A stretch of DNA of 64,000 bases from NCBI RefSeq assembly GCF_002007645.1, contig NZ_CP019791.1, positions 558,001-622,000 on the forward strand. The letters run 5' to 3'. Position numbers and translations under genes: made by a program. This DNA comes from Anaerohalosphaera lusitana. Lineage in GTDB: Bacteria > Planctomycetota > Phycisphaerae > Sedimentisphaerales > Anaerohalosphaeraceae. The stretch's first letter is position 1; the number at the start of each line of letters is the position of its first letter. Under the pieces are notes generated by a model that made no database searches, was not told the DNA's origin, and saw nothing but the letters and a program-made list of their open reading frames with translations. Below, in pieces: positions 3,236 through 22,546 of this stretch.

Positions 3236-3472
3236 TGGTCAACGCTCCTGAATAACTGTTTTTATTTCCGCAAAAACAGTTCCAGACAAAGCCTTGAAAC
3301 CACAGCAAAACTGACGAGCAATCGCAAAACACTTTCTGAAAAGCTCCTGTGATCACCAAGAAGAACTACTAAACAAAGTCCATCATATCACCCCGGTTGA
3401 ATTGGCCCTCCCGGCCTATCTCCCGCGCTCGTCTCAATAGAACATCTTTAAAAATTGTCCTAAAGCTTTATG

Positions 3473-4009: not shown

Positions 4010-4242
4010 CCAAAAAATCGCATTTTCTCACAATCGATTGCGTACCTCTGCACGATATCTGGTACGAGCTCAATGTTAAAGCCCATATATTGTACGTCAA
4101 GGGAAATCCCCCATCTTTTTCCGCGTAAAAAGCCCGACAACCTGTGAATTGTTGTTTTTAGTCTCCGCAACTCATTGCACTGCAACAGGTAACAGCGAAA
4201 CTAACAAAAAACTAACAGGCCCGATAAAATTTGATCTGGCGC

Positions 4243-4273
4243 AATAAAAAGGCCCTCGCGCTATGCGAGAGCC
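4243..4273 (-). terminator. Rho-independent terminator ending the candidate RNA
   Basis: On the minus strand GGCTCTCGC / GCGAGGGCC closes a short loop and is followed by TTTTTATT. Confidence 0.8.
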
Positions 4274-4610
4274 TCTCTATTTATAACTGGAAGGCCCAAA
4301 GCCCGGTTTCAAAGTGGAACCCGGCCCGGCACCGATCAAAATCGGAGCCAGCGTTCGCCCGGTTTCCGAACCGCAGCCTTCCCCCCAGAACTTCCACGGA
4401 CTCTCCTCAGGTAAAGAGTCCGAAAGTCACTTAATTGCAATAAAAACCGCCGCTGCCGACCCGAAGGTCGACTCGCGGCTGTTATCCCCCCAAATAGCTT
4501 CTCGGCCGGTCTTTAGTGTTTTTTTCAGGCCGCTGCGGAGAATTCTCTCCGATCCGATCGCCCGCAAGGTTTAATAAAGCCGCCTTACGACGACTTATGA
4601 CCGTCCACTA
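4243..4610 (-). ncRNA. candidate structured non-coding RNA, family not recognised
   Basis: A 370-base stretch with no convincing ORF but many stable hairpins when read on the minus strand: CGGAGA/TCTCCG (4536-4551), CGACC-TTCG-GGTCG (4457-4470, nested in a GCCGC/GCGGC stem), GGACTCT/AGAGTCC (4398-4421), and a closing hairpin with a T-run (4243-4273). A possible promoter (TTGGAG, 17 bases, TATGTT) lies just upstream near 4610-4650. I looked for the conserved parts of tmRNA, RNase P RNA, SRP RNA and the cobalamin riboswitch and did not find them. It could be an independent RNA or a long leader for something downstream, although the terminator separates it from nrdR. Confidence 0.5.
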
Positions 4611-4714
4611 AAAACATAATAAATGATTGCTGTTGCTCCAAATCCTGCCGGCCGAAAAATGCTACGATAACTCAAACTCATTACTGTCAATGAACTTCCC
4701 AGTGCCGATCCTCA

Positions 4715-4795
4715 TCACAACGGCATTCCATCAGGATACAGCACCCGAACAATCACGTTGACAATTTTGTCCATCACCATTTTTACCAGCTTCAT
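4715..4795 (-). CDS. 26-residue small protein with a strong ribosome binding site
   Basis: ATG at 4795 is preceded by AGGAGG with a five-base gap, one of the best Shine-Dalgarno matches in the window. The product starts MKLVKMVMDKIVNVIVRVL and ends YPDGMPL: an amphipathic helix of Val/Ile/Leu/Met alternating with Lys, Asp and Arg. It was found by reading the gap by eye. It could be a membrane-associated peptide or a leader peptide; there is no evidence for a specific function. Confidence 0.45.
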   Translation of the reverse strand: MKLVKMVMDKIVNVIVRVLYPDGMPL

Positions 4796-5239
4796 CACGA
4801 CCTCCTAAGCCAAAAAAAGCTACTCACTCTACGACTCTCGCGGAATCCTGTATCAACTGAAAATGTTTTTCTCCGATTCTGAACCCGGCGGTCCTCTGCC
4901 AGCCATAAAGACTCGCTTGCATAACATCAAAGTGATCAGACTATCCATATATCCCCTTTCGCTCGAATTCTGAATTTCTTTTACCGATCAGAATTCTCGG
5001 TGGTCTGGATGTCCATCTCATTATCACACCCCATTAACTTAACTCATCCTTCAACTAACAATTTACCAGAAAGCCCGCTTGACAATCAAGAAATTGTTAA
5101 GTAAATGTTAACGAGCAATGGTTCTGCGATAAGCTGCTACCCTCAATCCCGTATGCCAGCAGCAAGACCCCTGTTTTTATCGGCTCTGCCTGCCCTGGAT
5201 AATTTGTCTGAACGCTCAGATTTTTTCGCAAAGCGCGCA
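4796..5239. other. non-coding stretch
   Basis: No credible gene. It holds a perfect nine-base inverted repeat (see 4965-4996) and should contain the promoter for the minus-strand small ORF. Confidence 0.5.
4965..4996. repeat. perfect inverted repeat
   Basis: GAATTCTGA (4965-4973) and TCAGAATTC (4988-4996) with a 14-base spacer. It is AT-rich and lacks a T-run, so it could be an operator rather than a terminator. Confidence 0.5.
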
Positions 5240-5283
5240 GAAAAGGTGCCCGCTGAAACGCACATTCGCCCCAGCAGGCACCT
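5240..5283 (-). terminator. Rho-independent terminator for the M48 peptidase gene
   Basis: Minus-strand stem AGGTGCCTGCTG / CAGCGGGCACCT followed by TTTTCTG, 33 bases beyond the stop codon. Confidence 0.82.
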
Positions 5284-5315
5284 GGCTTAGCTGTAACATG
5301 TCCAATCGGGTGTGC

Positions 5316-6107
5316 CTAAAGATTATTCAGTACATACCGCTGATAATCCGCCTCACCCCGCTTGACATCGCTGTAACGCATACCCCTGATCCTGTCCTCC
5401 AGGATCGCCTGCCGATTCGCAGGTGCCGGGTGCGTTGACAAAAACTCGAATCCGCCCCCGCCCAGCTGTTCCAGCATAATCATCGTCTCCAGCAGTCCCT
5501 GCGGATCATAACCTGCCCGCAGCATGTAATCCATGCCGTACGTATCTGCCTCGATCTCGTCCTCTCTGCTGTATCTCAACTGCAGCAGTTGTCCGCCCAG
5601 ATCCGCAGCGGTCAGCGCTCCTGCCGGCGCATCGGTTGCGCTGCCGATACCCTGCAGCAGCAGGTCGAAACCTATCTGCCTGCTTATCGCCTGCGAGCTG
5701 TGCCTTATCGTCACATGTGCAACCTCGTGCGCAAGGATCCCCGCAAGCTGAGCCTCGTCGTCAATATTCCGTAACATACCCTCCGTAATGAAGATATGGC
5801 CGCCGGGCAGGGCCGAAGCATTCACCGACTTATCCCGGACGGCAGTAAACTCGAAATCTTCGCCAGCCAGATGCGTTTGCCGCACAATACTGCTGCCCAC
5901 GCTGTCTATGTAGTTCTGCAATTGCGTGTTCTGTATGGCCCCGCCAAGCTGCTTTTCCACCTCCGGCGCATATTCCTCACCAATACGTTTCTCCTCTTCC
6001 GAGGACACGAACATGAGTTCTCGCTCACCCGTAACAGGATTGGTGGAACATCCAGTGATTATGCCCGAAAACGCAACCATTAGCATTGAAAATAGCATCT
6101 TTCGCAT
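5316..6107 (-). CDS. M48 family zinc metallopeptidase lipoprotein
   Basis: 263 residues. A lipoprotein signal ends in ITGC with Cys20, followed by STNPVTGERELMFVS, typical of BepA/LoiP-like M48 proteins. The zinc site is HEVAH (H127, E128, H131), with the third ligand expected at the Glu in EDEIEAD (about residue 186). Such enzymes degrade or help fold outer-membrane proteins in the periplasm. It has the core peptidase domain but lacks the TPR domain of BepA. The gene is monocistronic, with its terminator at 5240-5283 and a divergent promoter region shared with the Rnf operon. Confidence 0.93.
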   Translation of the reverse strand: MRKMLFSMLMVAFSGIITGCSTNPVTGERELMFVSSEEEKRIGEEYAPEVEKQLGGAIQNTQLQNYIDSVGSSIVRQTHLAGEDFEFTAVRDKSVNASALPGGHIFITEGMLRNIDDEAQLAGILAHEVAHVTIRHSSQAISRQIGFDLLLQGIGSATDAPAGALTAADLGGQLLQLRYSREDEIEADTYGMDYMLRAGYDPQGLLETMIMLEQLGGGGFEFLSTHPAPANRQAILEDRIRGMRYSDVKRGEADYQRYVLNNL

Positions 6108-6157
6108 CTGATCTTACCTCCCGGCCGCAAAACTCGGCGCTGTCTGAAAATTTTAAC

Positions 6158-6186
6158 TTGAAAGTTCACCTCATATTAATTATAAG
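6158..6186 (+). promoter_or_regulatory. probable promoter of the Rnf operon
   Basis: TTGAAA (6158-6163), a 17-base spacer and TATAAG (6181-6186), 30 bases before the first ATG of the operon. Confidence 0.6.
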
Positions 6187-6215
6187 CTCGACTTTAGGCC
6201 TGAGGACATATAAAA

Positions 6216-6533
6216 ATGACACAGGATAAGTTTTGCTCCAATTGCCCTAACAAACACGATTGCAAAAGCATCTATGAAGCAATGGGCAATACCAAAGGAG
6301 AGTCCGTCGTGCTCAAGGTCATTGTCGCCTTCCTGCTCCCCATAATAATATTTATCGCAGCATTGATGTTATCGCAGGAACTGCTGGCTGACAAGCTTGA
6401 CGGACAAAAAACGGAGGCGGTTGTTCCCGCACTCATCGCATTGGGAGCAACCCTTACATGGATAACGGTTATTTACGTGATTAATACGATCCTGGCCAGA
6501 AGGTCAGGCCGGAGTTCATCGCAAGGAGATTAA
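6216..6533 (+). CDS. small membrane protein with Cys motif, first gene of the Rnf operon
   Basis: 105 residues. The N-terminus has three cysteines in CSNCPNKHDC, which could bind a metal or an iron-sulfur cluster. Two hydrophobic segments follow (about residues 32-53 and 67-90), with a basic C-terminus. It ends two bases before rnfC and its last codons contain the rnfC ribosome binding site, so the two are probably co-translated. In other bacteria an RseC-like membrane protein often sits in rnf loci; this has a similar layout but I cannot claim homology. Confidence 0.65.
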   Translation: MTQDKFCSNCPNKHDCKSIYEAMGNTKGESVVLKVIVAFLLPIIIFIAALMLSQELLADKLDGQKTEAVVPALIALGATLTWITVIYVINTILARRSGRSSSQGD

Positions 6534-6535
6534 AA

Positions 6536-7903
6536 ATTTCTAGCTCGACCAAAAAATCATTCCCGGGCGGAGTACACCCTGCGGACCAGAAAGAACTGAC
6601 CGCCGATAGCGCGATCCAGCAGATCGCACCTCCAAAACAGGTTGCAATTCTGTTAAGCCAGCACATCGGCGCACCAAACCATCCGACAGTCAAAAAACGT
6701 GACACCGTCGAGATCGGCCAGGTGATTGGCACAACCGACGCTTTTGTTTCCTCGCCCGTCCACTCGCCCGTTAACGGAACGGTAAAAGATATCGCTTTGC
6801 GCTCGCATCCGGTTCTTGGACGTACCGAGGCGATCGTCATCGACACCGACGAAGAAAACCCGGGCATTAAAACTCCTGTTGCGGATAGATTCGATGCTTC
6901 CTTCGACGAAAACAAATTCACCGCACAGCAGATCGGTGACGCGATCAAAAACGCAGGCATCGTGGGCATGGGCGGTGCAGGTTTCCCGACACGCGTAAAG
7001 GTCGAGCCTGACACAGAACCCAAAAAGCACACGATGCTAATAAACGCCTGTGAGTGCGAACCATATATAACATGTGACTACCGCGTGATGCTCGAATGGA
7101 CATACCAGTTCATCGCGGGCATAAAGCTCGCCAAAAAGATCTCAGGGTGCAAACGTGTCTGCATCGGCGTGGAAGACAACAAGACCGAGGCTCTGCAGGT
7201 ACTCAAAGAAGCCATCGAAAAGGCCTCGCCTGATTTCGAGCTGATCCCTTTGCAGACAAAATACCCGCAGGGCGGCGAAAAACAGTTGATCAAAGCGGTC
7301 CTCGATCAGGACGTACCGCTTGGCGGTATCCCGCCGCAGATCGGACTGCTGGTCATGAACGTTGCGACATGTGCAGCGATCGCCGAAGCTGTCGTACTCG
7401 ATCAGCCGTTGACACATCGCGCACTGACTGTCACGGGCCACGGCATCAACTCGCCTGGCAACTTCTATGTGCCCATCGGCACACCCATCCAGGAGATCAT
7501 CGACCTGTGCGGCGGCCTGAAGGACTCGGCTGTGAAAGTCATTTTGGGCGGGCCGATGATGGGCTTTGCTGTCGGCGACCTTTCGACCCCGGTCACAAAG
7601 ACCTGCGGCTCGATACTCGTCCTCTCGAAAGACGAAATCTCGAAAGCGAAGTTCGAACGCAAACAAACGCCCTGCATACGCTGCGGTCGATGCCTTGAGG
7701 TCTGCCCAGCGAACATAAACCCGACAAAGATCGCTCATTCAGTCAAGCACAACATGCTCGACCTGGCTGAGCAGTATCACATGGCCGCGTGCATCGAGTG
7801 CGGTTGCTGCAGCTACATCTGCCCAGCCAACATCGAAATAACGGGTCACATAAAAACTGGCAAGGTCCTCAAGGCCCGACAGCAAAAAAAAATGCCTAAG
7901 TAA
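6536..7903 (+). CDS. rnfC: Rnf complex subunit C, apparent AUU start
   Basis: 455 residues. RnfC is the peripheral subunit that carries electrons between NAD(H) and the rest of the complex. FPGGVHPADQKEL, the conserved N-terminus, starts at residue 9. Two 4Fe-4S motifs are near the C-terminus (CIRCGRCLEVCP and CIECGCCSYICP). The conserved N-terminus lies upstream of the first GTG (6722), and the frame back to its stop at 6482 contains no ATG, GTG or TTG before it. AAGGAG (6523-6528) lies seven bases before ATT 6536, so AUU is the only good initiator. Five more rnf genes follow in order D, G, E, A, B. Confidence 0.9.
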   Translation: MSSSTKKSFPGGVHPADQKELTADSAIQQIAPPKQVAILLSQHIGAPNHPTVKKRDTVEIGQVIGTTDAFVSSPVHSPVNGTVKDIALRSHPVLGRTEAIVIDTDEENPGIKTPVADRFDASFDENKFTAQQIGDAIKNAGIVGMGGAGFPTRVKVEPDTEPKKHTMLINACECEPYITCDYRVMLEWTYQFIAGIKLAKKISGCKRVCIGVEDNKTEALQVLKEAIEKASPDFELIPLQTKYPQGGEKQLIKAVLDQDVPLGGIPPQIGLLVMNVATCAAIAEAVVLDQPLTHRALTVTGHGINSPGNFYVPIGTPIQEIIDLCGGLKDSAVKVILGGPMMGFAVGDLSTPVTKTCGSILVLSKDEISKAKFERKQTPCIRCGRCLEVCPANINPTKIAHSVKHNMLDLAEQYHMAACIECGCCSYICPANIEITGHIKTGKVLKARQQKKMPK

Positions 7904-7955
7904 CTGCCAAATCCGGCAAATCAACTGGTAACCCGAAATTAGGACACTGGTTCAA

Positions 7956-9008
7956 ATGCACGAAAATCTGACAGTATCACCAGCTCCGCATATCAGCAAG
8001 GCGCACTCGACGCAGTCGGTCATGCTCGACGTCCTCATAGGTCTGGCGCCTGCGGTAATCGCAGCAATAATCTACTTCCGCATCGAGGCTGCGGCGGTCA
8101 TTATCACCTGCACCATCGCCTGCATCGCTGCCGAGTGGATCTCGAACAAAATGCTCCGTCGTCCGTCTTCCATCGGCGACCTATCGGCAGTGGTAACCGC
8201 CGTGATCCTGGCACTTTCGCTGCCGCCGACTATCCCGCTTTGGGGCGCGGCTGTTGGAAGTGCGTTCGGTATCTTTATCGCCAAAATGGTATTCGGCGGA
8301 CTCGGCGCAAACGTTTTCAACCCCGCAATGGCTGCTCGTGCGTTCATGGCTGCATCGCTCGGCGGACTGATGACCACATGGACCGTTCCTGCAACTGTCG
8401 ATGCACAGTTGGCGACCAACGAACCTGCGGCTATGGCGAAGATCTCGGCCGCAAACGAAGTCGCTGAAGACGGCACGACAGAAGCCATCACTCAGGCAAC
8501 ACCGCTGGCCTGGTCAAAGAACGCACAAAAGGGTGAAGTCGACGCATCCATTGTTAACAAACTGATCGAAGCGACCTTCACCGGAACTACGGGCGGCTGT
8601 CTGGGCGAAACATCGTCACTTGCCCTCATTCTCGGAGGCATATACCTGCTTATAAAACGCACCATCAGCTTTCACATACCCGCTGCCGTTCTGCTTTCGG
8701 CATTCGCCGCCGCCGCCATTGGCTGGTTCGCGGCTCCAGAACAGTATGCAAACCCGGTCTTCCACATAACTTCAGGCGGCATGCTAATCTGTGCTTTCTT
8801 CATCGCCACCGATCCTGTCACCGCGCCGCTGACAAAGCTGGGCATGTGGATCTTCGGCATAGGCGTGGGCGTCGTCATCATGCTCATCCGACTCGTCGGC
8901 GAATACCCCGAAGGCGTGATGTATGCCGTTCTGCTGATGAACGCGTTTACGCCGCTGATCGACCGTTTCTGTAAACTCACTCCAGCAGGAGGAAAAGCAA
9001 ATGCGTAA
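7956..9008 (+). CDS. rnfD: Rnf complex subunit D
   Basis: 350 residues, integral membrane with about nine hydrophobic segments. GGLGANVFNPAMAARAF and TGGCLGETS are RnfD/NqrB signatures. RnfD carries a covalently bound FMN on a threonine; the likely site is T182 in ITQATPL, matching the (S/T)xAT pattern. It overlaps rnfG by eight bases, implying translational coupling. Confidence 0.95.
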   Translation: MHENLTVSPAPHISKAHSTQSVMLDVLIGLAPAVIAAIIYFRIEAAAVIITCTIACIAAEWISNKMLRRPSSIGDLSAVVTAVILALSLPPTIPLWGAAVGSAFGIFIAKMVFGGLGANVFNPAMAARAFMAASLGGLMTTWTVPATVDAQLATNEPAAMAKISAANEVAEDGTTEAITQATPLAWSKNAQKGEVDASIVNKLIEATFTGTTGGCLGETSSLALILGGIYLLIKRTISFHIPAAVLLSAFAAAAIGWFAAPEQYANPVFHITSGGMLICAFFIATDPVTAPLTKLGMWIFGIGVGVVIMLIRLVGEYPEGVMYAVLLMNAFTPLIDRFCKLTPAGGKANA

Positions 9009-9618
9009 CATAAAATTCTTCTTCCGACAGAGCTGGCTTGTTATCGTCGCATCCTTTGCGTTCGGCGGACTCCTGGCGCTTACAAACGCCGCACTGCAAC
9101 CGCGCATCCAGGCCAATCTCATTGCGAAATTCAACCGAACGGCCGGCAACCTCCTGCCTGATGCGAAAAACTTCGAAGTTCCCCAAGCTTTCGAGGACCT
9201 CGAAAAGATCAAAACCGACTCAGGCGACGAACTCAGCATACAGATTAAAAAAGCAATCGATGCCGAGGGTAATCTCGTAGGCTGGGCGTTCACCGCGAAG
9301 GGCCCTGGCTTTGCAGATATGATCGAGCTGGTCATCGCAACAGGTCCGAAGCTGGAATCGATCAAGGGTTTCGGCGTTCTAAAGAGTAACGAAACACCCG
9401 GTTTCGGCGATCAGATCAACAACGACTTCTACCAGGACCAGTTCCACGGTGCACCGACGGCCAGCCTTGAACTGAGCAAGATCGGCGACGCGTCGAAGAT
9501 CGACAACACTATTGTCGCGATCACTGGTGCAACCGTGACCAGCGATGCGGTCGTGAACATATTCAACACGTACCTCCCGGAAGTGAAAGAGCTGCTCGCA
9601 GAGAATCAGCAGATATAA
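9001..9618 (+). CDS. rnfG: Rnf complex subunit G (FMN-binding)
   Basis: 205 residues: one N-terminal membrane helix (residues 12-30) and a periplasmic FMN-binding domain. The covalent FMN site is T178 in ITGATVTS. GFGVLKSNETPGFGD is the family's conserved loop. It accepts electrons within the ion-pumping complex. An ApbE-type flavin transferase would be needed, and none is in the window. Confidence 0.95.
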   Translation: MRNIKFFFRQSWLVIVASFAFGGLLALTNAALQPRIQANLIAKFNRTAGNLLPDAKNFEVPQAFEDLEKIKTDSGDELSIQIKKAIDAEGNLVGWAFTAKGPGFADMIELVIATGPKLESIKGFGVLKSNETPGFGDQINNDFYQDQFHGAPTASLELSKIGDASKIDNTIVAITGATVTSDAVVNIFNTYLPEVKELLAENQQI

Positions 9619-9658
9619 ACGACGCTAAAGAAAACCATAAAACCCTAAAGGTTCGAAA

Positions 9659-10291
9659 ATGGCAAACGATACGAACACCAAAATGAAAGTCTTCTCCGCC
9701 GGGTTCTGGCGCGAGAATCCCGTACTCATCCTCCTGCTCGGCATGTGTCCGACACTGGCGGTAACGACCGGCGTTAACGCATCGCTGACGATGGGCCTGA
9801 CCGTGATCTTCGTTCTCACCTGTGCGAACATCGTGGTCTCTCTCATGCGAAACCTGCTCAAGCCGCACATCCGCATTTTGATGTTTACGCTGACGATATC
9901 CACCTTCGTGACGATCGCGGACCTGGTGCTCAAGGCGTATTTGCCGGACATGTCCGACAAGCTCGGTCCTTACATCCCGCTGATCATCGTTAACTGCCTG
10001 ATCATCTGCCGGGCCGAGGCTTGTGCAAGCAAATCGCCCATCGGCACCTCGATCATCGACGCACTCGGTATGGGTCTGGGCTTCACGGCAACTCTTGTCG
10101 CACTCGGCGCGATCCGCGAACTGTTCGGCACAGGCAAGCTCATGGGCTTCGAGATACTTCACACCACCGCCAACGGCGGCTGGTACACACCATGGGCAGG
10201 CATGATCATGCCGGTCGGTGCCTTCGTCACGCTGGGCCTGATGCTTGCGGGCGTGAACCTCGTGAACCGAAAACTTGAATCGAAAAAATAA
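9659..10291 (+). CDS. rnfE: Rnf complex subunit E
   Basis: 210 residues with six membrane segments, the normal RnfE layout. It contains NPVLILLLGMCPTLAVT at the N-terminus and INCLIICRAEA-like Cys motifs that in RnfA/E help bind an iron-sulfur centre in the membrane (seen here as VNCLIICRAEACASK). It is related in sequence to rnfA, two genes apart, and the pair forms the channel-like core. Confidence 0.95.
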   Translation: MANDTNTKMKVFSAGFWRENPVLILLLGMCPTLAVTTGVNASLTMGLTVIFVLTCANIVVSLMRNLLKPHIRILMFTLTISTFVTIADLVLKAYLPDMSDKLGPYIPLIIVNCLIICRAEACASKSPIGTSIIDALGMGLGFTATLVALGAIRELFGTGKLMGFEILHTTANGGWYTPWAGMIMPVGAFVTLGLMLAGVNLVNRKLESKK

Positions 10292-10324
10292 GCGAATCGC
10301 AAACGTACATATAAAAGGATAGCC

Positions 10325-10915
10325 ATGGATACCCTGCAAACCTTAATACTCGGCTTTCTCGGCGTCGTAATCGTAAACAACCTGGTACTCACGAAGTTCC
10401 TCGGCATCTGCCCGTTCCTGGGCGTGTCCGGGCGAATCGACATGGCCTTCGGCATGGGCCTGGCAGTGACGTTCGTGGTCACTCTTGCCGGCACGCTGAC
10501 CTGGATCATCGACCACGGCTTGCTCATGCGGTACGAAAGCCTCGTCGTACTTCGCTACGTCGCGTTCATCCTTGTCATCGCATCCGCCGTGCAGCTCGTT
10601 GAAATGTATGTCCGTAAATTCTTCCCGCCGCTGTACCAGAGCTTTGGCATATTCCTGCCGCTGATTACCACGAACTGTGCGATCCTCGGGCTGTGCCTGT
10701 TCCTCAACCTCTGGGCGGTAGAAAGCCTTCTCGAAGCAGTCGTACTCAGCTTTGGTGCGGGCATTGGCTTTACACTCGCTATCTGCATCATGGCAGGTAT
10801 CCGTGAAAATCTGCTCCTTGCCGACGTGCCCGAATGTATGAAAGGCGCACCGATAACACTCGTGACCGCTGGTCTACTAACCCTGGCATTCATGGGCTTC
10901 GCTGGCATGATATAA
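10325..10915 (+). CDS. rnfA: Rnf complex subunit A
   Basis: 196 residues, six membrane segments. NNLVLTKFLGICPFLGVS near residue 18 and TTNCAILG in the middle are the RnfA signatures, each with the Cys that coordinates the intramembrane cluster. ATG 10325 follows AAAGGATAGCC. Confidence 0.96.
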   Translation: MDTLQTLILGFLGVVIVNNLVLTKFLGICPFLGVSGRIDMAFGMGLAVTFVVTLAGTLTWIIDHGLLMRYESLVVLRYVAFILVIASAVQLVEMYVRKFFPPLYQSFGIFLPLITTNCAILGLCLFLNLWAVESLLEAVVLSFGAGIGFTLAICIMAGIRENLLLADVPECMKGAPITLVTAGLLTLAFMGFAGMI

Positions 10916-10990
10916 ACCGAAACACAAACAACTGTTTACCGACCGCCCGAGCCGGCGGCAAAGCAAACTGAAAATATACCGGGAACAAAA

Positions 10991-11863
10991 ATGACGATCA
11001 CAACTGTTATTTTCGCTGGATTGATAATGCTCGCCCTGGGCAGCGTTTTCGCCCTCGTACTCCTAATCGCGAGCATAAAACTCAAAGTCGAAGTAGATCC
11101 GAAGATCGAACAGGTGCACGCCGCTCTGCCCGGCATTGACTGCGGTGCCTGCGGCTACGCCGGCTGTGCCTCATACGCAGAAGCGGTAGTAAACGACCCG
11201 GACGAACTCGGCAAGTGCTCGCCGGGCGGCCCGGACTGCAAGTCCAAGATCGCCGCTATTCTCAACCTGCAGGTCTCAGGCGGCGGCGCACCCCAGCGGC
11301 CAATCGTTCACTGCCGTGCACATTACGGTGACAAAACTTATTACGCAAAATACCAGGGCGTAGACTCCTGCACCTCGGCCAACGCCGTCCCCAACGTCCA
11401 GGCCTGCCGCTTCGGCTGCCTCTCGTTCGGCGACTGCACACGCGCATGCAAGTTCGATGCGCTGCACATCATCGACGGCCTGGCAACTGTCGACTACGAA
11501 AAATGCACCGGCTGCGCAGCCTGCGTAAAAGCCTGCCCCCGCGACCTCATCGAGATGGTTCCCTTCTCACAGGAAAATATGCTCACCGTCGCCTGCTCCT
11601 CACAGGAGTCCGGCAAGGATACTCGCGGTATGTGCAAAGTCGGCTGCATCGCCTGCCGCATGTGCACCAAGCAGTCCGATCTGTTTGAAATGACGGGCAA
11701 TCTTGCACGCATGAAATACGAAGATTACGAACCATCCGAAAAGACCGACACTGCCGAGAAAAAGTGCCCAACCAACGTCATAGTCTACCGCGGCAAAACC
11801 GCACCGGCCCCAAGAGCCGCAGGCGAAAAGGCCCAAAAACCCAAACCCAAAACCGAAGCATAA
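10991..11863 (+). CDS. rnfB: Rnf complex subunit B (ferredoxin-oxidising iron-sulfur protein)
   Basis: 290 residues. A membrane helix (residues 8-28) is followed by the RnfB-specific cluster motif CGACGYAGCASYAEA, then several ferredoxin-like motifs including CRFGCLSFGDCTRAC, CTGCAACVKACP and CKVGCIACRMC. RnfB is the entry point for electrons from reduced ferredoxin. The C-terminus is a basic, proline-rich tail. It is the last gene of the operon; the following 340 bases hold no gene. Confidence 0.95.
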   Translation: MTITTVIFAGLIMLALGSVFALVLLIASIKLKVEVDPKIEQVHAALPGIDCGACGYAGCASYAEAVVNDPDELGKCSPGGPDCKSKIAAILNLQVSGGGAPQRPIVHCRAHYGDKTYYAKYQGVDSCTSANAVPNVQACRFGCLSFGDCTRACKFDALHIIDGLATVDYEKCTGCAACVKACPRDLIEMVPFSQENMLTVACSSQESGKDTRGMCKVGCIACRMCTKQSDLFEMTGNLARMKYEDYEPSEKTDTAEKKCPTNVIVYRGKTAPAPRAAGEKAQKPKPKTEA

Positions 11864-12208
11864 TCGGTCCTACCGTTTTGCCAAGCTGTCGCGGTGGAAA
11901 AGCCCTTCAGTGTCTCACTCGCTTAGAAACTCAGGCAAGTCGATTGGGGGTAGGCTTGCGAAGATGACCTGGCGGGGGGTGTAGGTTTATTTTTTACTAT
12001 CTTTGTTCCTGTTTGCAGCAACTGCTCCAATTCTACGATTGCTGCGCCCATCTTTAACGAATATCAAAAAACTGAATGCTTTTGTTCAACACAAGATTTT
12101 TGTGGCGGGTCCGTCATGACATGTGGAGGTGTTGCGGCGAGGCGGGATAAAAAGTTTATTCTGATGCTGGCGTTTTTAGGGTTTTTCTGCTATAAGGAGG
12201 CCTTGTGT
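11864..12208. other. non-coding stretch at a strand-composition switch; possible replication origin
   Basis: No gene seen on either strand. To the left the plus strand carries more C than G even where genes run on the minus strand (nrdR, the M48 gene). To the right it carries more G than C, again even where genes are on the minus strand (glyA). The change falls within this gap. The part at 11985-12110 is AT-rich. This is the pattern expected at a bidirectional origin, but I see no clear DnaA-box cluster and no dnaA gene. Confidence 0.45.
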
Positions 12209-12304
12209 ATGCGTTCATATTTGCCTTTTGGTAATGGACTTGCATCAAATGGGTGCTGGTTTTGCGGTGTGCGTAAGCTGGCTGGTTATTTTGGTTTAAT
12301 TTGA
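12209..12304 (+). CDS. 31-residue small ORF coupled to the phosphoesterase gene
   Basis: ATG 12209 lies eight bases after a perfect AAGGAGG. The product starts MRSYLPFGNGLASNG, has a CWFC motif and ends YFGLI. Its stop is eight bases before the likely ATG of the phosphoesterase, whose own ribosome binding site is weak, so it may act as a translational coupler or leader peptide. It was found by eye. Confidence 0.4.
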   Translation: MRSYLPFGNGLASNGCWFCGVRKLAGYFGLI

Positions 12305-12312
12305 AGATAGCG

Positions 12313-13089
12313 ATGTTTGCAGTAATAAGCGATATACATTCGAATATTGAAGCATTGACGGCGGTGCTGGATGATATCAAGTCCAAGGGGATCGAAAAGA
12401 TTTATTGCCTTGGGGATATTGTCGGCTATGGGCCGAATCCGAAGGAATGTCTGGATCTGATCATCGAGAAGACGGAATTCGCGGTCCAGGGAAACCATGA
12501 TTACGCGGTTTTGTATGAGCCGACGAACTTCAATACCGGTGCTGAGATGGCTGCTCACTGGACGCGGAATTTTCTTGAAGAGGAAAAGGATGCGGCGAAT
12601 CGTGAGAAGTGGTGGAACTTTCTCGGTGAGCAGATAATGCGCCGCAGCAAGCGGATGAAGCTGGGCGATGTGGACGCTCATATCGACTTTGTGCATGCGT
12701 CACCGAGGCGGCCGATCAACGAGTATGTGTTTCCGGATGATGTGTTTACGCTGCCGGGGAAGATAAACGGGCTGTTCGATATGGTGGAGCATATCTGCTT
12801 TATCGGGCATACGCATCTGCCGGGGGTGTTCCTGGAGGACCCGGACTTTTATACGCCTGACGAACTTGGGGAGTATTACCCGGTGATCCCGGATGAGAAG
12901 GCGATCATCAATGTCGGCTCGGTTGGGCAACCCAGAGACAGGGACAATCGTGCGAGCTATGCCTATGTGAAGGAGAACGAGGTGTATTTCGTGCGGGTGG
13001 AATATGATTATGAGAAGACAGCGAAGAAGATCTATGAGATAGATCAGCTTGACGATTTTGAGGGTGAGAGGCTGTACGAGGGGAAGTAA
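12313..13089 (+). CDS. calcineurin-like metallophosphoesterase
   Basis: 258 residues. The metal-binding motifs of the calcineurin-like superfamily are in order: DIHSN, GDIVGYGP, GNHDYA and, near the C-terminus, GHTHLP. This fits the small bacterial subgroup related to YfcE/DR1281-type phosphodiesterases. The substrate cannot be told. TTG 12301 would add four residues; ATG 12313 is preferred because it sits directly at the conserved AVISDIHSN. Confidence 0.9.
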   Translation: MFAVISDIHSNIEALTAVLDDIKSKGIEKIYCLGDIVGYGPNPKECLDLIIEKTEFAVQGNHDYAVLYEPTNFNTGAEMAAHWTRNFLEEEKDAANREKWWNFLGEQIMRRSKRMKLGDVDAHIDFVHASPRRPINEYVFPDDVFTLPGKINGLFDMVEHICFIGHTHLPGVFLEDPDFYTPDELGEYYPVIPDEKAIINVGSVGQPRDRDNRASYAYVKENEVYFVRVEYDYEKTAKKIYEIDQLDDFEGERLYEGK

Positions 13090-13227
13090 AAAGCAGTTTT
13101 TTGAACGACTTCTCGCGATTTGGCGGCTTAGGGGGAGCGGGGCTGCTGAGTCGTCGGCTTTGGAAATTGAGCGGTTTGGTTTTAGACGTGCCGGCGTGAG
13201 TCGGGCGGTTTTATAAGGGATAAAGAG

Positions 13228-15276
13228 ATGAAATTGAAGATATTTGCAGCGGCGTTTATTCTGGCATTTGCGGGTTATTGCGGGTTCGAGGTTTATCAGT
13301 CTGGATTGTTCGTGGAGGGTGAGCAGGCGGGCGGTGTTATACGGCTTGCGGCTGAGGAAGCGGCCGGCGATACGGATGCGAGCGATGGGACGGATGTTGC
13401 AGGTGAAATAGATTCTGCTGAAGAGCAGACCGTGCTGCAGGCGGAAGAAAGGCTGCCGGAGCTGGTGGCGATCAACCGGGGGACGGTTACACGCGAGCTT
13501 GGGTCGCTGGATCCGCAGAGCGGGTATGAGTATAAGCTCGAGCTGACGAGTAAGGGGGCGGCGATCGCGAGTGCGACGATGAGCGGGTTCGACGATCGGA
13601 ATGCGGACGATCCGCAGCCGCTGCGTTTGCTTGAGCCGGTTGAGACAGGACGCGGTACGAAGCGCACGTTTTCCAATGGTCTGGTGATCGACTGGGGTGA
13701 CCGTTCGTTTCCGCTGGACAGGCTGAATTGGCAGGCGGGGGAAGTTGTGACGGCGGAAGACGGGTCGCAGTCGGTGAGTTTCGAGGCGATTGTAGGTACC
13801 GGTGTTGTGGATGCACAGGGCGGGGGGAAGACTGTCGAGACGCCTTTGTTGAAGGTGGTTAAGACATATACCGTGATGCCGGGGCTGTATCATATGGAAT
13901 GTGATGTTGCGCTGGAGAATCTGAGCGGGACGCCTTACCGTGCGATGCTGCGGGTGCAGGGGCCGACGGGAATGCCCCGCGAAGCGGTTCGGATGGAGAT
14001 GCGGAAGGTGTTCGGAGCGTATGTTTCGCCGACGGGCAAGGTCGAGTCGATATACAAGGAAAAGAAGGATATCGAGAAGGCGATCGAAAAGGGTGAGAAG
14101 GACAAGCTTTCGCTGACGGCACCGGAAGAGACGAACTTCTTGTGGGGGGCGACTACGAACAAGTATTTTGCAGCTATCCTGCGGCCCGTGCCTGTTGAGG
14201 GACAGAATTATGTGCCGGGTGCTGAGGCAGGTCGAGCACAGTTCTACCTTGAGAAGGGTGACGCGGCGGAAGCGGGCGGCGAGTATCTGAGCTTTGATAT
14301 GAATTCGGTTTCTGGTGAGCTTGCGGCGGCAGGAAGTGAAGGCGCGAGCGATGTGCTGAGTTATCAGCTTTATATCGGGCCGAAGGATAAAGATGTTTTT
14401 ACGGACAATGCGCTGTATCGCGAGCTGGCGTATTTTCAGACGATCAGCTTTCGGACGTGCTGCTGTCCGCAGGCGATAATCAGTCCGCTGTCGTTCGGTG
14501 TCATGTGGCTGATGAAGACGATGTATTCGCTAATGGGGCCGTTGGGCAACTACGGTATTGTGATCATTATCTTTGTGGGGCTGGTGCGGCTGGCGCTGCA
14601 TCCGATCACGAAGAAGAGCCAGGTTTCGATGATGAAGATGCAGAAGCTTGGTCCAAAGATGGAAGAGCTGAAAAAGAAGTACGGCGACAACAAGCAGGAG
14701 CTGCAAAAGCGGACGATGGAGCTTTATCGCGAGATGGGCGTGTCGCCGGTGAGCGGTATGCTGCCGATCTTTTTACAGATGCCGATCTGGATTGCGCTGT
14801 ACAGTGCTATTTATGCGAACGTCGAATTGCGTGGTGCGGCATTTCTGCCGGTGTGGATCACGGACCTTTCGGCGCCGGATGCGCTATTTAGTTTTCCGGC
14901 GATCACTATTCCGCTGATTGGTGCGGAGTTGAGTTCGTTCAATCTGCTGCCGGTGCTGCTCGGCGTTGCGATGTTCCTGCAGCAGAAGATGATGCCGCAC
15001 CAGTCGCGTGAGGGAGTGAATCCGCAGGTGGCTCAACAGCAGAAGATGATGATGTGGATGATGCCTGCGATGATGCTGATATTCCTTTACAAGGCGCCGA
15101 GCGGGCTGAACCTGTATATCATGACAAGTGTGTTTGCGGGTGTTTGGGAGCAGAAGGTCATCCGCAAGCACATCAAGGAAAAGGAAGAGCTGGAGGCGCA
15201 GGGCAAGGTTCCTGTGACGAGCAAGACAGGCGGTAAGGTGAAGAAGAAAAAGCCGAAGCCGTGGATCAAGCAATAG
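13228..15276 (+). CDS. yidC: membrane protein insertase YidC
   Basis: 682 residues. It has an N-terminal membrane anchor, a long periplasmic domain (about residues 50-400) and the C-terminal 60KD-inner-membrane-protein domain with five membrane segments. Typical signatures are GPLGNYGIVIIIF, LQMPIWIALY and APSGLNLYIMTS. It inserts proteins into the inner membrane alone or with Sec. The tail is basic (KVKKKKPKPWIKQ). A CCC triplet of cysteines at the domain junction is unusual. The gene sits close to the composition switch, and yidC is often near the origin in bacteria. Confidence 0.96.
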   Translation: MKLKIFAAAFILAFAGYCGFEVYQSGLFVEGEQAGGVIRLAAEEAAGDTDASDGTDVAGEIDSAEEQTVLQAEERLPELVAINRGTVTRELGSLDPQSGYEYKLELTSKGAAIASATMSGFDDRNADDPQPLRLLEPVETGRGTKRTFSNGLVIDWGDRSFPLDRLNWQAGEVVTAEDGSQSVSFEAIVGTGVVDAQGGGKTVETPLLKVVKTYTVMPGLYHMECDVALENLSGTPYRAMLRVQGPTGMPREAVRMEMRKVFGAYVSPTGKVESIYKEKKDIEKAIEKGEKDKLSLTAPEETNFLWGATTNKYFAAILRPVPVEGQNYVPGAEAGRAQFYLEKGDAAEAGGEYLSFDMNSVSGELAAAGSEGASDVLSYQLYIGPKDKDVFTDNALYRELAYFQTISFRTCCCPQAIISPLSFGVMWLMKTMYSLMGPLGNYGIVIIIFVGLVRLALHPITKKSQVSMMKMQKLGPKMEELKKKYGDNKQELQKRTMELYREMGVSPVSGMLPIFLQMPIWIALYSAIYANVELRGAAFLPVWITDLSAPDALFSFPAITIPLIGAELSSFNLLPVLLGVAMFLQQKMMPHQSREGVNPQVAQQQKMMMWMMPAMMLIFLYKAPSGLNLYIMTSVFAGVWEQKVIRKHIKEKEELEAQGKVPVTSKTGGKVKKKKPKPWIKQ

Positions 15277-15307
15277 AGGAATTGATGATGGTCGATGTGA
15301 ATTCTAG

Positions 15308-15344
15308 AGGGCTGCTGCGAATGATCGCGCGGCCCTTTTTCTTT
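15308..15344 (+). terminator. Rho-independent terminator after yidC
   Basis: GGGCTGC / GCGGCCC stem with an inner TGCG/CGC pairing, followed by TTTTTCTTTG. Confidence 0.82.
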
Positions 15345-15529
15345 GTTGTGAGATGATGTTGGTGTGCCTTTGTCATTCGTATATTAAGCGCCGCTCGCGT
15401 TTTTTGAGTTTATGTGTTATTGAGCATCATCTTTTTAATGCCCGGTTGATCGTTAAGTGTTTGGAGGCAGGGGTTGCTCTGCAAAGTTAGTTTTATTTAG
15501 CAGGCTTGTAACTATGAAAGGGAACTGAA

Positions 15530-15796
15530 GTGAGCAGAGAGAAGAAGGTTATGCTGAGCGGGGCGGGGGTTAGCTGTGCTTTGGGGTTGGTAACGATCGG
15601 GCCGCCGGATCTTATTTCGCAGTGGTTTTATGCGACGGTTTCGGTGGCGGTCTATTTTATGTATGTGGGTGTTTTGCGGGTGGTGCTGGGCAGGATCACC
15701 GGGATTAAGCAGGCGGTTATCTTTGCTGTGATGGGCGTGCTGACAGCATATGCAGGGACGTGGGGTTTCTTATGGATCATGCGGGGAGTGGGTTGA
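15530..15796 (+). CDS. small membrane protein, unknown
   Basis: 88 residues with about three hydrophobic segments (residues 8-25, 32-52, 60-84). I choose GTG 15530 after AAAGGGAA. No motif is recognised. It overlaps the next gene, so the two are likely co-expressed. It is the first of a six-gene run (15.5-19 kb) of unrecognised membrane or secreted proteins on one strand. Confidence 0.5.
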   Translation: MSREKKVMLSGAGVSCALGLVTIGPPDLISQWFYATVSVAVYFMYVGVLRVVLGRITGIKQAVIFAVMGVLTAYAGTWGFLWIMRGVG

Positions 15797-16335
15797 TATG
15801 GTTGGAAAAGCATGTGATGTATAAAAATCTTGTCAATAATAAGCTTGCCAAGCAAGTGTTGTTCTGGGCCGGGTTTGTTGGGGTGTGGTTTGTATACGCC
15901 TTTTTTATGGATGCGGTGGTTGGCAGGCCCTTGGATCGTGGCGACACAGCAATTGCGATGAGGCGCTTCACCGGGGTTGTGCTAGCGGGTATGCTGGCGT
16001 ATCTGGTTTGGGTTTATAAAACTTGGCAGCGTGACAGATTCTGGCGGTTTGACGTTGCGGGAATGATGCTGGTCTGTGGATTGTTTGGAGTTGGCATATT
16101 TTACAAGACCGAAATGATGACCGTATTGGGTTTTATTAGTTTTTTCGTTTTATCAGACTTCAGGTTCATCAGAGAATTAAAGCGGGACAGGCATCTGGCG
16201 GGAAGTAAGAACATTCGGGAGCGGGTGGGATACTGGATAACGGTTGTTAATACCGTACTGATCGCTTTGATGATCATTATGTTGTCGGCAGTGGGTTTTG
16301 TTATGCTTGTGTATGTGCTAGGGATGGGGAAGTGA
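15772..16335 (+). CDS. multi-pass membrane protein, unknown
   Basis: 187 residues from ATG 15772, overlapping the preceding gene by 25 bases. Four to five hydrophobic segments (for example WAGFVGVWFVYAFF and ALMIIMLSAVGFVMLVYVL) are separated by basic loops. The start is uncertain: ATG 15817 (MYKNLVNN) with GGAAAAG upstream is equally plausible and would avoid the overlap. No family recognised. Confidence 0.5.
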   Translation: MDHAGSGLIWLEKHVMYKNLVNNKLAKQVLFWAGFVGVWFVYAFFMDAVVGRPLDRGDTAIAMRRFTGVVLAGMLAYLVWVYKTWQRDRFWRFDVAGMMLVCGLFGVGIFYKTEMMTVLGFISFFVLSDFRFIRELKRDRHLAGSKNIRERVGYWITVVNTVLIALMIIMLSAVGFVMLVYVLGMGK

Positions 16336-16363
16336 ATGGTGTTTGGTTTGAAGGTGAGGATTT

Positions 16364-16774
16364 ATGGCTGGGCCTGAGCTTGATGGTCGTGATGAGTTGG
16401 TGTATTACTTTTTTCCGCCGGGAGCTGCGGTGGCGGGGCTGGTGTCGGTTATGGCGTTTGCCTGGCTGGGCTGGTACGGGGTGAATGAGGTTTTGTTTTT
16501 TGCGTGGCCTGCGGGGCTGGTCTGGTGGGTGATCCATGTGCTCAGGCGTAACTGGCGGATGGCGGGACAGACGTATTTTCTGTTGTGGGCGTGGGTTTTG
16601 CTGTCGTATGTGGGGGCGATCGTGATGACGATCGTACTGCATTATTTGGGATGGGATGAGGAAAGGCGATCGCTTGTGAGTCAGCGTTTTGGGGTCGGTA
16701 TGCTGGCGGTGCTGGCTTTGATGGGGGTAGTGCAGTTTTATATTCGCAGGCGGTGGTGGGGTGAGGATGAATAG
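16364..16774 (+). CDS. membrane protein, unknown
   Basis: 136 residues, four hydrophobic segments, tryptophan-rich (WLGWYG, WWVIHV, WAWVLL). ATG 16364 has GGTGAGGA upstream. The C-terminus ends RRRWWGEDE. The similar size and layout to its neighbours suggests a related set. No family recognised. Confidence 0.5.
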   Translation: MAGPELDGRDELVYYFFPPGAAVAGLVSVMAFAWLGWYGVNEVLFFAWPAGLVWWVIHVLRRNWRMAGQTYFLLWAWVLLSYVGAIVMTIVLHYLGWDEERRSLVSQRFGVGMLAVLALMGVVQFYIRRRWWGEDE

Positions 16775-16832
16775 AAGGTCGGGATGAAGAAAACAGGATT
16801 TCTAACAACATTCAATAGACGGAGGTTTTGTT

Positions 16833-18092
16833 ATGCGGTTGGAGCGGATTTTTGTTTGCGGTGTTTTTATTTTGTGCTGTCTGGTTGGCGGGATTTGTTT
16901 TGGCGGGGAGGATGTTGAGGCGGGCAGTGCGGCGGAGCGGTTTGAGGAGGCGCTTGGGGAGGTAGACCCTGATGCTGGTGATGATGAGATGGTCGAGCAG
17001 ATGAAGGAGGCGATGGGGGTTGAGAGTGACGAGGAGATGTTTGGAGTGATGCTGGAGGCTATGCGTGAGTCGGCGGACAGGATCGAGGATGGTGCTGAGA
17101 AGCTGGCTCGGAGGCGTGAGCGGCTGATCGATACTTATCGCGGTGAGCTGGCGGAGCTTGAGAAGATACTGCGGGCGGAGGAGGATGAGTGCGAGAAGGC
17201 GTTGCGGCTGGTGGATAAGAAGCGGGCTGAGTTGAAAGAGACTGCGGACAGGCGGGGCAAGGAGTCGAAGAGCAAGAGAGAGCTGGCGAGGCAGATTTAT
17301 GCGCTGGGTCTTGAGGTGCTTGCGGATCGTATCGAGTTTATGCTCGGGGTCAGGCAGGTGTGTGAGGATGAGTGCGGTGACGCGGTGACGGAGTGGGTCG
17401 AGGATCGGCTGGTCGGTCTGCGGTTTGTTTATATCGAGCGGCTCGGGATGAATGTGACGGATATACTGAAGGCTGACCGGGAATCGGGGGATGTTTTGCG
17501 TGAGAGTGCATTTTTGCCTTCGTATATGACGCATTGGCGGGAAGTCGATTTCGGGGAGGCTATGCCGGAGCTGTATGAGAGCAGGCGGCGGATGCCGAAG
17601 GGGGGGCCGGGTATGATTGGCCTGATGCCTGGCGGGATGTTCGGAGGCAAGCGTCCGATCCGGCCGAGTGTTTACGGCTGGGCAGGCGGGGGAGCGAATA
17701 TGCATTACTGTGTGGAGAAGGGAAAGGTGGGGCAGTTCGTGCGGGATGTGCGGGAGTTTTGTGAGGAGGCTGGGTATGAGGCGCTTGAGTTCGATTTGTG
17801 TGTGCCGGAGATGGAGGGGAGTGCGGATGCGGCTTGGATCGGTGGGCCCGGTGAGGCGGAGGCGTGGAACCAGTTCTGGTATGATGATGCTGGGCGCGTG
17901 TTCGGTGTGAGTGTGATGCGAAGCGAGGAGAAGGGCAACGAGGTGAGGTGGGTTTATCTGCCGCGGGAGAAGGTGGAGGCTGTGATGGATTATCTGCGGC
18001 TTGAGGATGGGGAGTATGAGGTTGACGAAGAGCGGATGGAGGCGGGGGATTTTTATCGGCTGCGCGACGTGACTGACAGTGAGTGGTTTTGA
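16833..18092 (+). CDS. secreted coiled-coil protein, unknown
   Basis: 419 residues. A signal peptide (ERIFVCGVFILCCLVGGICFG) has a cleavage region near residue 24. Residues 35-170 are acidic and basic heptad-like helices, likely a coiled coil. A Gly/Met-rich linker follows (MPKGGPGMIGLMPGGMFGG, about residue 260), then a compact C-terminal domain. A strong GGAGG precedes the start. Codon use is extremely G-rich, as in the whole cluster. Function is unknown. Confidence 0.55.
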   Translation: MRLERIFVCGVFILCCLVGGICFGGEDVEAGSAAERFEEALGEVDPDAGDDEMVEQMKEAMGVESDEEMFGVMLEAMRESADRIEDGAEKLARRRERLIDTYRGELAELEKILRAEEDECEKALRLVDKKRAELKETADRRGKESKSKRELARQIYALGLEVLADRIEFMLGVRQVCEDECGDAVTEWVEDRLVGLRFVYIERLGMNVTDILKADRESGDVLRESAFLPSYMTHWREVDFGEAMPELYESRRRMPKGGPGMIGLMPGGMFGGKRPIRPSVYGWAGGGANMHYCVEKGKVGQFVRDVREFCEEAGYEALEFDLCVPEMEGSADAAWIGGPGEAEAWNQFWYDDAGRVFGVSVMRSEEKGNEVRWVYLPREKVEAVMDYLRLEDGEYEVDEERMEAGDFYRLRDVTDSEWF

Positions 18093-18116
18093 GATCGTTT
18101 TGCGGGAGGCAGGAAG

Positions 18117-18530
18117 ATGGTTAGGATACCCAATAGTTTGTGGGGATATTTTTGGTATATGGTTCTGCTGACTGTTGCGGTGTTGATCGTAGCTATGCTG
18201 CTGAACTTGGGGGTGGATCCTGTTGCGGTGCCGGTGGTGACGGTAGTGAATGAGGCGGGGGGTGAGGTGCGGGGTGTGGAGCTGGTTTGTGGGGAGAAGG
18301 CTGAAGGAAGGCTTGTAATGGATTCTAAGCACGTTGGTGAACTGGCGGCGGGTGAACAGGCGGACGTGGTGATAGTGCCGCGGGAGAAATTTTCGTTGGC
18401 GGTGCGCTGGCAAGCAACGGACGGCGAGGAGTTTGAACGTGAGGTGGGCGAGGGCTTGGTGCCTGGTGAAATTGACAGAATAGAGATTGTGCTGAAGGCG
18501 GATGGTGAGGTGGATATGGAGATGGATTAA
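18117..18530 (+). CDS. single-pass membrane protein with an extracytoplasmic beta-rich domain, unknown
   Basis: 137 residues. One membrane helix (residues 11-30) is followed by about 100 residues rich in Val and Gly with alternating charge, suggesting a small beta-sandwich. GGAGGCAGGAAG precedes the start. It overlaps the region upstream of the next gene closely, consistent with an operon. Confidence 0.5.
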   Translation: MVRIPNSLWGYFWYMVLLTVAVLIVAMLLNLGVDPVAVPVVTVVNEAGGEVRGVELVCGEKAEGRLVMDSKHVGELAAGEQADVVIVPREKFSLAVRWQATDGEEFEREVGEGLVPGEIDRIEIVLKADGEVDMEMD

Positions 18531-18549
18531 GGTTCGTAAGGAGCAGGTC

Positions 18550-18951
18550 ATGGCGGTTGATAGGGTTCGGGTTGCGGTTTGGTCGGTTGCGGGGATTGTC
18601 GTGTTGTATTTTATCGCTGGGAGCAGTTGTTGGTGTTATGTGTTCAGTCCGACGCCTAGGGATTTTGCGGAGCGGATTGTTTGCGGGTCCAACCAGAAGG
18701 GGATACATGCGGCGGTGGTGGAGTACCGGGATGAGCATGGGGAGCTGCCGGGGTCGGCTGAGGTGCTTGTTGAGGAGGGGTATTTTGGTGAGGATGTGCT
18801 GGTGTGTCCGACAAGCGGTCAGGGGTACGAGTATGAGCGGGACAGCTTTGGCGAGTCGGATGAGGTGCTGATATTCTGTGATACGGATCATGGCGGTGAG
18901 AAGGTGCAGACGATGGGAGACGGGGAGGTGGTGATGGAGGCGGTGGAGTGA
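18550..18951 (+). CDS. H-X9-DG-type membrane-anchored protein
   Basis: 133 residues from ATG 18550, which has AAGGAG six bases upstream. One membrane helix (residues 7-28) is followed by a CGSNQKGIHAAVVEY segment and, near the end, H-G-G-E-K-V-Q-T-M-G-D-G: a histidine, nine residues, then DG. That matches the H-X9-DG motif common in planctomycete proteins that are processed like pseudopilins. The usual GFTLVE cleavage site is missing, so it may be a diverged pseudopilin or a relic. Confidence 0.5.
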   Translation: MAVDRVRVAVWSVAGIVVLYFIAGSSCWCYVFSPTPRDFAERIVCGSNQKGIHAAVVEYRDEHGELPGSAEVLVEEGYFGEDVLVCPTSGQGYEYERDSFGESDEVLIFCDTDHGGEKVQTMGDGEVVMEAVE

Positions 18952-19055
18952 GGTTTGACTGCATTTGGTTTTAGAAGACGCTGGCAGGTTAAATTTTGAG
19001 TCGCATCACTTTTTCGTTAGATAACGAAAGCAGTGAGGAGCAGCGGATGAGTTTT

Positions 19056-19550
19056 TCAGTGTCTTCGACGCAGGGTTAATGTACCGATTGTGAGGAGTGC
19101 GAGGGTTGCGGGTTCGGGGACTACGTGTATGTCGGTTTGATATTCCTCGGTTGAGCCTTCGACCCAGTATCGCGCTCCTGCGAAGTCTTCGGGCACGAGG
19201 TCCGGGGAAATATGCGCCCATGCTTCGAGTGGTTCGTTAAATCCAAGCATTTCAGCAAGTACTGACAAGAAGTCTAAGCTCGGCCAGTCTAATATGACCC
19301 TTCTGACCGAATAGGAGTTAACTGAGTCGACTTGGGGCTTAGAGCTTTTTAGACCAGTATCTTCATTGGTTGTTTCATGGAAATCTAAAGCGATTCTTGT
19401 GACATTAGCACCATCATCGTCGACCAGTACCAAGCCTGAAAAAGAATCATACTGTATCAGGGGTATGCCGTCGCCGGTGATGAGGTTTGCGGATGCGGTT
19501 GTGGTCGCAAATAATGCGAAAGTGATGAGGGTCAGGGTTTTGAATTTCAT
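19056..19550 (-). CDS. PEP-CTERM sorting domain protein
   Basis: 164 residues. It has a signal peptide (LTLITFALFATTTASA) and a C-terminal VPEPATLALLTIGTLTLRRRH, a textbook PEP-CTERM signal (PEP motif, hydrophobic segment, basic tail) recognised by exosortase. The middle has no family I know. No exosortase gene is in the window. Proteins of this type are exported to the cell surface or matrix. Confidence 0.85.
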   Translation of the reverse strand: MKFKTLTLITFALFATTTASANLITGDGIPLIQYDSFSGLVLVDDDGANVTRIALDFHETTNEDTGLKSSKPQVDSVNSYSVRRVILDWPSLDFLSVLAEMLGFNEPLEAWAHISPDLVPEDFAGARYWVEGSTEEYQTDIHVVPEPATLALLTIGTLTLRRRH

Positions 19551-19924
19551 GGTTTGCCTTTCTCAAAGACAGTAATTATGCCTGATGATAGTAAGGTGGA
19601 GTGAGAGTGTCAAGAAGTTTAGGGTGTTTTAGTTTACGTATTATATATAATCACACAGGGTGTTAAATATGTCGGTGCAGAGAATCAGATGGGTCAATAA
19701 TGAGTAAGAAGCACGCTTTTTAATGCTGTTTACGTTTGGGGGCGAGTCGAAGGTGTGGATCGCTCTGTTGTTAGGCGGGGTGAATAAATTCTTTCATGTT
19801 GGGGGCGTTGTTGGTAAAATAGGCAGGTGCGTTTGGTGTGCCCGGGGGCATTTTTGGGTTTTTGTTTCGGGTTTTCGGGTGCCGGAATTTGGACTTTTTT
19901 CTTTCTCATTACAGGAGATTTGCG
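19551..19924. other. non-coding stretch between divergent genes
   Basis: No ORF with a plausible start. It should hold the promoters of the PEP-CTERM gene (minus) and the Gly/Met-rich gene (plus); I could not fix either with confidence. Confidence 0.4.
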
Positions 19925-22200: not shown

Positions 22201-22224
22201 GTGTTTGACGTTTTCTGGATGCGA

Positions 22225-22542: not shown

Positions 22543-22546
22543 CTGT

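Follow-up and report, generated by a model that had tools for sequence, protein, structure and literature searches.

A switch in strand composition between rnfB and a phosphoesterase gene

The window analysed here is a stretch of 64,000 nucleotides, bases 558,001-622,000 of the single-contig, 4,250,973-bp genome of Anaerohalosphaera lusitana (family Anaerohalosphaeraceae). On its plus strand, rnfB (10991..11863), which encodes the ferredoxin-type Rnf subunit and has Pfam FeS and Fer4 matches, is separated by an intergenic gap (11864..12300) from a calcineurin-like phosphoesterase gene (12301..13089, plus strand) and from yidC (13228..15276, plus strand), the second gene past the gap and, as predicted, close by. 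A second copy of the gap was sought in the genome, and none was found. The gap contains a 30-bp fragment (11953..11982, minus strand) that weakly resembles a coding sequence at genome 382,342 (E 0.001) and is possibly what is left of a gene that decayed there. Directly before the phosphoesterase, at 12,209-12,304 of the window, lies a reading frame of 31 codons that has a strong ribosome-binding site and could be a leader peptide or a product of chance.

The original prediction had placed in this gap a switch of the plus strand from C-rich to G-rich, and the switch is real. The cumulative GC skew of the window reaches its minimum at 11,932, and with a single change point the maximum-likelihood switch falls at 12,092 (genome 570,092; 3-nat interval 11,920-12,128), with flanks of different sign. 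The left flank (1..11931), whose last gene is rnfB, is weakly to moderately C-rich (about -0.01 to -0.25 per kb over the first 12 kb of the window) and forms the tail of a domain that starts at genome 421-427 kb. The right flank (12093..64000), whose first gene is the phosphoesterase, is G- and T-rich: per-kb skew is +0.25 to +0.54 at 12-19 kb of the window and remains above zero up to 61 kb, mainly at +0.1 to +0.35, so that it declines from about +0.5 by the switch to roughly +0.1 over 56-64 kb before turning negative past the right end. The step itself, from -0.08 to +0.38 inside one gene gap, is abrupt. Its height is between about half and two-thirds of that of a full crossing, and it comes almost wholly from the right flank, which stands at full amplitude, the left flank being only about -0.1.

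The sign of the skew is held by genes of both orientations, again as predicted. At third codon positions it is -0.16 to -0.49 in the plus-strand rnf genes, +0.38 in the phosphoesterase, +0.55 in yidC and +0.52 in the serine hydroxymethyltransferase gene glyA (24046..25338), which has a plus-strand G excess despite lying on the minus strand; at fourfold sites rnfB reaches -0.60. The AT-rich core that had been proposed for the gap exists (62% AT over 12,001-12,100), but the enrichment is modest. A motif check on 11864-12300 agreed with the reported lack of a DnaA-box cluster: there is no DnaA box within one mismatch, and the best matches carry two.

The skew of the chromosome is a saw-tooth

Our first survey, of 40 samples of 20 kb spread around the chromosome, revealed repeated sign changes with absolute skews of 0.1-0.3. 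The full skew sample covers 2.05 of 4.25 Mb, with 172-272 kb and 318-1,928 kb near-gapless and the rest as scattered samples (positions in kb refer to the genome unless the window is named). Over these 2.05 Mb the skew profile is a saw-tooth, with about 14 (13-15) sharp rises from C-rich to G-rich and mostly gradual falls between them. The rises lie near 225, 367, 422, 570, 717, 829, 891, 1,063, 1,090, 1,331, 1,349, 1,470, 1,598, 1,688 and 1,836 kb, and switches like that of the window recur every 60-240 kb along the chromosome. The view of the window's switch as the cumulative-skew minimum expected at oriC does not survive this result, since so many comparable switches in the sampled half rule out a unique oriC at 570 kb. 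Sharp falls are also present, at 259, 382, 1,080 and 1,342 kb, which indicates that inversions contribute to the profile.

Transcription could in principle set such a skew, through co-oriented gene blocks or strong promoters, and several jumps do fall between divergent genes. However, at the fourfold sites of 837 genes (called by a simple script rather than by a gene finder) GC skew follows the skew of the surrounding DNA (R2 0.66) and shows no dependence on gene strand (R2 0.000), and in the window the minus-strand genes share the sign of the plus-strand ones. We therefore give this explanation almost no credence. Because the skew is independent of gene strand, and because T over A moves together with G over C at fourfold sites, we take it as a signature of replication.

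A second alternative is that the chromosome has a single origin and that many inversions scrambled its skew, every switch including that at 570 kb being an inversion edge. The sharp falls fit this idea, as do near-identical insertion-sequence copies at 719 and 1,331 kb and a gene order much rearranged with respect to relatives. Yet inversions predict equal numbers of sharp steps up and down, whereas in the sampled part 15 steps above 0.3 go up and 5 go down; the asymmetry of the jumps (time-irreversibility, measured as skewness) was reached by 0 of 2,000 phase-randomised surrogates at each of five scales. The declines, moreover, are true gradients. Mean fourfold skew within domains falls steadily from +0.50 to -0.57, a mean profile that is biased because borders were picked as up-jumps; the spread of values at mid-domain is free of this bias, and genes there have intermediate, unimodal skews whose spread resembles that of the domain ends, which argues for a gradient rather than a mosaic of flipped blocks. 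Several crossings are also smooth across 5-10 kb. The one at 891 kb passes ftsW and murG, with successive gene values of -0.67, -0.21, +0.49 and +0.77; since these two genes are adjacent in most of 39 relatives, this crossing is no breakpoint. The crossing at 1,836 kb spans about 10 kb and eight genes, and both would be hard to explain as recombination junctions. Together with the location of the arrays described below, which sit at up-jumps and not at down-jumps, these observations make a single origin with scrambled skew unlikely.

Other features of the jumps were less informative. Structured RNAs or tRNAs were rejected as markers, only two tRNAs being found, near two sites, and phased T-tract chains were too few to count. 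No KOPS- or Chi-like word was clearly singled out among the polar octamers. Copies of an insertion-sequence-like element, about 1.2 kb long, mutually inverted and 99% identical, lie at 718.5 kb and at 1,328-1,330 kb, where they adjoin two skew jumps.

The nearest named relatives belong to the Sedimentisphaerales, one being an Anaerohalosphaeraceae bacterium, and those found are related at family level only. Their gene order is heavily scrambled with respect to this genome, and among them no switch is conserved: skew at family level is weaker and has no clear saw-teeth. In a complete genome of the same order (G042) skew is weak, and T/A moves opposite to replication-type skew.

An iteron array lies near most skew rises

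Searching for words common to the jumps led from a marginal 10-mer to a 19-mer present at two jumps and from there to a dispersed element. The 10-mer, TTTTGACCCA, is marginal alone, since 3 of 200 random sets were equally good. The element is an array of 6-8 units ACTTTTRCCC at a spacing of 10-11 bp, roughly 80 bp in all, and it lies near most jumps. When the sequence read was scanned with the unit profile, 11 of the 12 top arrays fell no more than 5.4 kb from a skew jump, two of these 11 (at 830 kb and 1,688 kb) lying outside the training set. A genome-wide scan gave as its second-best array one at 889,994, in a stretch not read before and 1.7 kb from the 891-kb jump. The 11 strong arrays of the densely read part are near higher jumps than random positions are (combined probability 1e-7), as are the seven arrays not used in finding the element (1e-5). 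A reading frame judged by eye to be Cas9-like (886.4-889.99 kb) directly adjoins the array at 889,994.

Seen along the TTTTRCCC strand, nearly every array has its crossing 0.3-5 kb to the 3' side, an offset that may mark the place where the DNA is first unwound. Four jumps have no strong array: those at 570, 1,331 and 1,598 kb, and that at 829 kb, where a weak one is present. Conversely, an array-like stretch at 525.5 kb coincides with no jump and lies in a zone nearly free of skew, as would be expected of an origin that is young or inactive. Some copies of the element have about 200-300 bp in common and seem to be recent duplicates, and in others only the array is shared. Within the family one further copy of the array was seen (in the relative G003), and a weak instance occurs in one additional genome; a generic TTTTRC triplet pattern was near background in the relatives. 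Being nearly absent from relatives, the array is young or fast-evolving.

A dispersed 82-bp repeat follows the direction of the skew

Further evidence comes from a different, 82-bp repeat with inverted ends (GCCGCATAATTT / AAATTCTGCGGC), apparently REP- or MITE-like, which occurs at 67 places between 27 and 4,095 kb. Its orientation equals the local skew sign in all 35 testable copies. Along the whole genome, every plus-to-minus flip of the repeat (11/11) holds or adjoins an array (within 1 kb), and none of the 10 opposite, minus-to-plus flips does; the array-bearing flips include regions not read for skew, at 2,992, 3,575 and 3,791 kb. Since some of the repeats are neighbours of arrays, copies unlinked to an array provide the fairer test. 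Those more than 2 kb from any array match the skew sign in 30 of 30 cases; the nine plus-to-minus flip intervals that they define take up 12% of the genome and contain 11 of 18 arrays, against 1 of 18 in the opposite intervals, which take up 44%.

Jumps and arrays might instead be fixed, Ter-like termination sites, with diffuse initiation between them and C-rich leading strands. The shape of the skew alone cannot separate termini from origins, and the position of the arrays mostly on one side of the crossing would suit such sites. On the other hand, nearly all bacteria have leading strands rich in G and T, and the gene bases co-directional with the G-rich strand make up 64% and 58% on the two sides, a moderate bias; highly expressed genes were too few for an orientation test of polarity. 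The usual G-rich leading strand and this co-orientation favour origins over termini, and we regard the reversed polarity as very improbable.

Two DnaA proteins and a candidate initiator

The genome encodes two full-length DnaA proteins, each with an ATPase and a DNA-binding domain, from genes at 376 bp and at 470.7 kb. They were the only DnaA-type proteins found, and the arrays are not beside their genes. The 570-kb switch is not next to dnaA/dnaN, the nearest dnaA gene being 99 kb away. Most relatives likewise carry two DnaA. Canonical DnaA boxes are scarce, and no obvious cluster is seen among the roughly 100 places of an incomplete genome-wide listing. The DNA-binding loops of the two proteins differ (GGKNHATV versus GGRDHTTV), and the array unit TTTTRCCCM departs from the DnaA box TTWTNCACA mainly at base 7; our guess is that one of the two paralogues binds the array. 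In one complete relative (G037) we also observed about 10 near-identical weak DnaA-domain matches of 262 codons, which probably represent multiple copies of an IS21-type helper ATPase.

The switch at 570 kb is most likely an inversion edge

No iteron array was found within 8 kb of the 570-kb switch. Of 38 relatives, nearly all keep the phosphoesterase-yidC pair, but in none does rnf stand before it, and the rnfB/phosphoesterase junction is absent from all 38. Several relatives have a dnaA homologue about 2 kb from the pair, and with reference to some of them the phosphoesterase and yidC are the remnant of a neighbourhood that included dnaA and a gene now at 360 kb. This dnaA-linked locus is possibly the ancestral origin neighbourhood; a DnaA-box cluster upstream of the phosphoesterase was sought in the relatives and not found.

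It follows that 570 kb itself could be an active origin, compatible with multiple origins elsewhere and perhaps a remnant of the old oriC by yidC, whose array was lost or is of another kind. Besides the proximity of both genes to a dnaA homologue in several relatives, the correct polarity of the switch and the full amplitude of its right flank speak for it. Against it stand the lack of both array and DnaA boxes, a left flank of merely about -0.1, a junction present in no relative, and an almost exact pairing with the 1,080-kb down-jump. Among four candidates, the down-jump at about 1,080 kb is the best partner of the 570-kb jump (mismatch 0.06; next best 0.17). The skews at 570 and 1,080 kb complement each other, so that inverting the intervening 510 kb or so would make both edges continuous. 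Active initiation at 570 kb thus appears doubtful, although it deserves more weight than the alternatives above.

Three properties of an inversion edge coincide at 570 kb: an abrupt change, a junction absent in relatives and a matching opposite jump. As the skew of both flanks matches the opposite jump at about 1,080 kb, the switch most likely represents one end of an inverted segment of about 510 kb (roughly 570-1,080 kb). No inverted repeat joining the edges was found in the sequence read, outside which lie 1,200 bp at the proposed 1,080-kb edge. An origin at the switch, as first proposed, accordingly retains its origin-like polarity but neither an array nor a conserved junction; the two fall-backs offered with it, an unusual origin and a recent inversion edge, were apt, and the site fits an inversion edge with its other end at about 1,080 kb.

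Discussion

Taken together, the sequence patterns make it likely that this is a multi-origin chromosome in which the 570-kb switch is a by-product of inversion; the saw-tooth, its independence of gene strand and its association with arrays and 82-bp repeats are observed, and initiation, initiator and inversion are all deduced from sequence. With about 14 zones in the sampled half, there are perhaps 20-35 overall, and on balance we think it probable that a single circular chromosome is served by about 20-35 fixed bidirectional origins, most of them defined by an array capable of being copied to new sites.

Under this model, many fixed initiation zones would copy the chromosome, most bearing an array of 6-8 phased iterons. 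The array would be recognised by an initiator, presumably one of the two full-length DnaA paralogues, which would load the helicase nearby; forks would depart from each zone in both directions, and those from neighbouring zones would converge at positions that vary. The lagging-strand template would stay exposed for long, which would make leading strands rich in G and T and produce a sharp jump at each zone and a gradual fall between zones. The inversion of about 510 kb would then have joined mid-domain DNA, on the rnf side, to origin-side DNA, on the phosphoesterase-yidC side.

If true, many fixed, sequence-marked origins in a planctomycete would allow direct tests of the coordination of multiple forks, segregation and termination in a bacterium, and of the emergence and relocation of origins. 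It would amount to a eukaryote-like replicon map in a free-living bacterium, for which the arrays and the orientation-biased 82-bp repeat supply exact test sites.

To our knowledge, the rule of one chromosome and one origin is broken among bacteria only in some cyanobacteria, in which we know of no sequence-defined origin set. For cultured members of the present planctomycete lineage, a 2018 study by Spring et al. in Environ Microbiol (20:2438) reportedly describes the lack of a canonical origin and alternative start sites; it is not known to describe saw-tooth domains, an iteron array or an orientation-biased repeat. Archaeal origins are few and usually adjoin initiator genes. The archaeon Haloarcula hispanica has a chromosome with multiple origins (PMC3936714). 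Archaeal multi-origin chromosomes resemble the one studied here in having several sequence-defined origins per circle, but here the inferred origins are far more numerous, there are two DnaA-type proteins, and the arrays lie away from dnaA.

In Synechocystis, Nostoc and Geminocystis, replication from multiple origins is DnaA-independent, and cyanobacterial initiation is reportedly asynchronous, from multiple sites, with irregular skew (PMC7198777). These too are bacterial chromosomes with more than one start site and no simple V-shaped skew. In contrast, the skew described here is strong and ordered and the sites are marked by arrays, which implies positions fixed over evolutionary time. The closest likeness in shape is to the human N-domains, or replication skew domains, which have sharp up-jumps at their borders and a gradual fall in between, a pattern interpreted as fixed zones of initiation combined with diffuse termination (PMC3320577). 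The A. lusitana chromosome has the same sharp jumps and gradual declines, but it is bacterial, its domains measure 60-240 kb instead of about 1 Mb, its skew is far stronger, and most of its borders carry a common sequence array.
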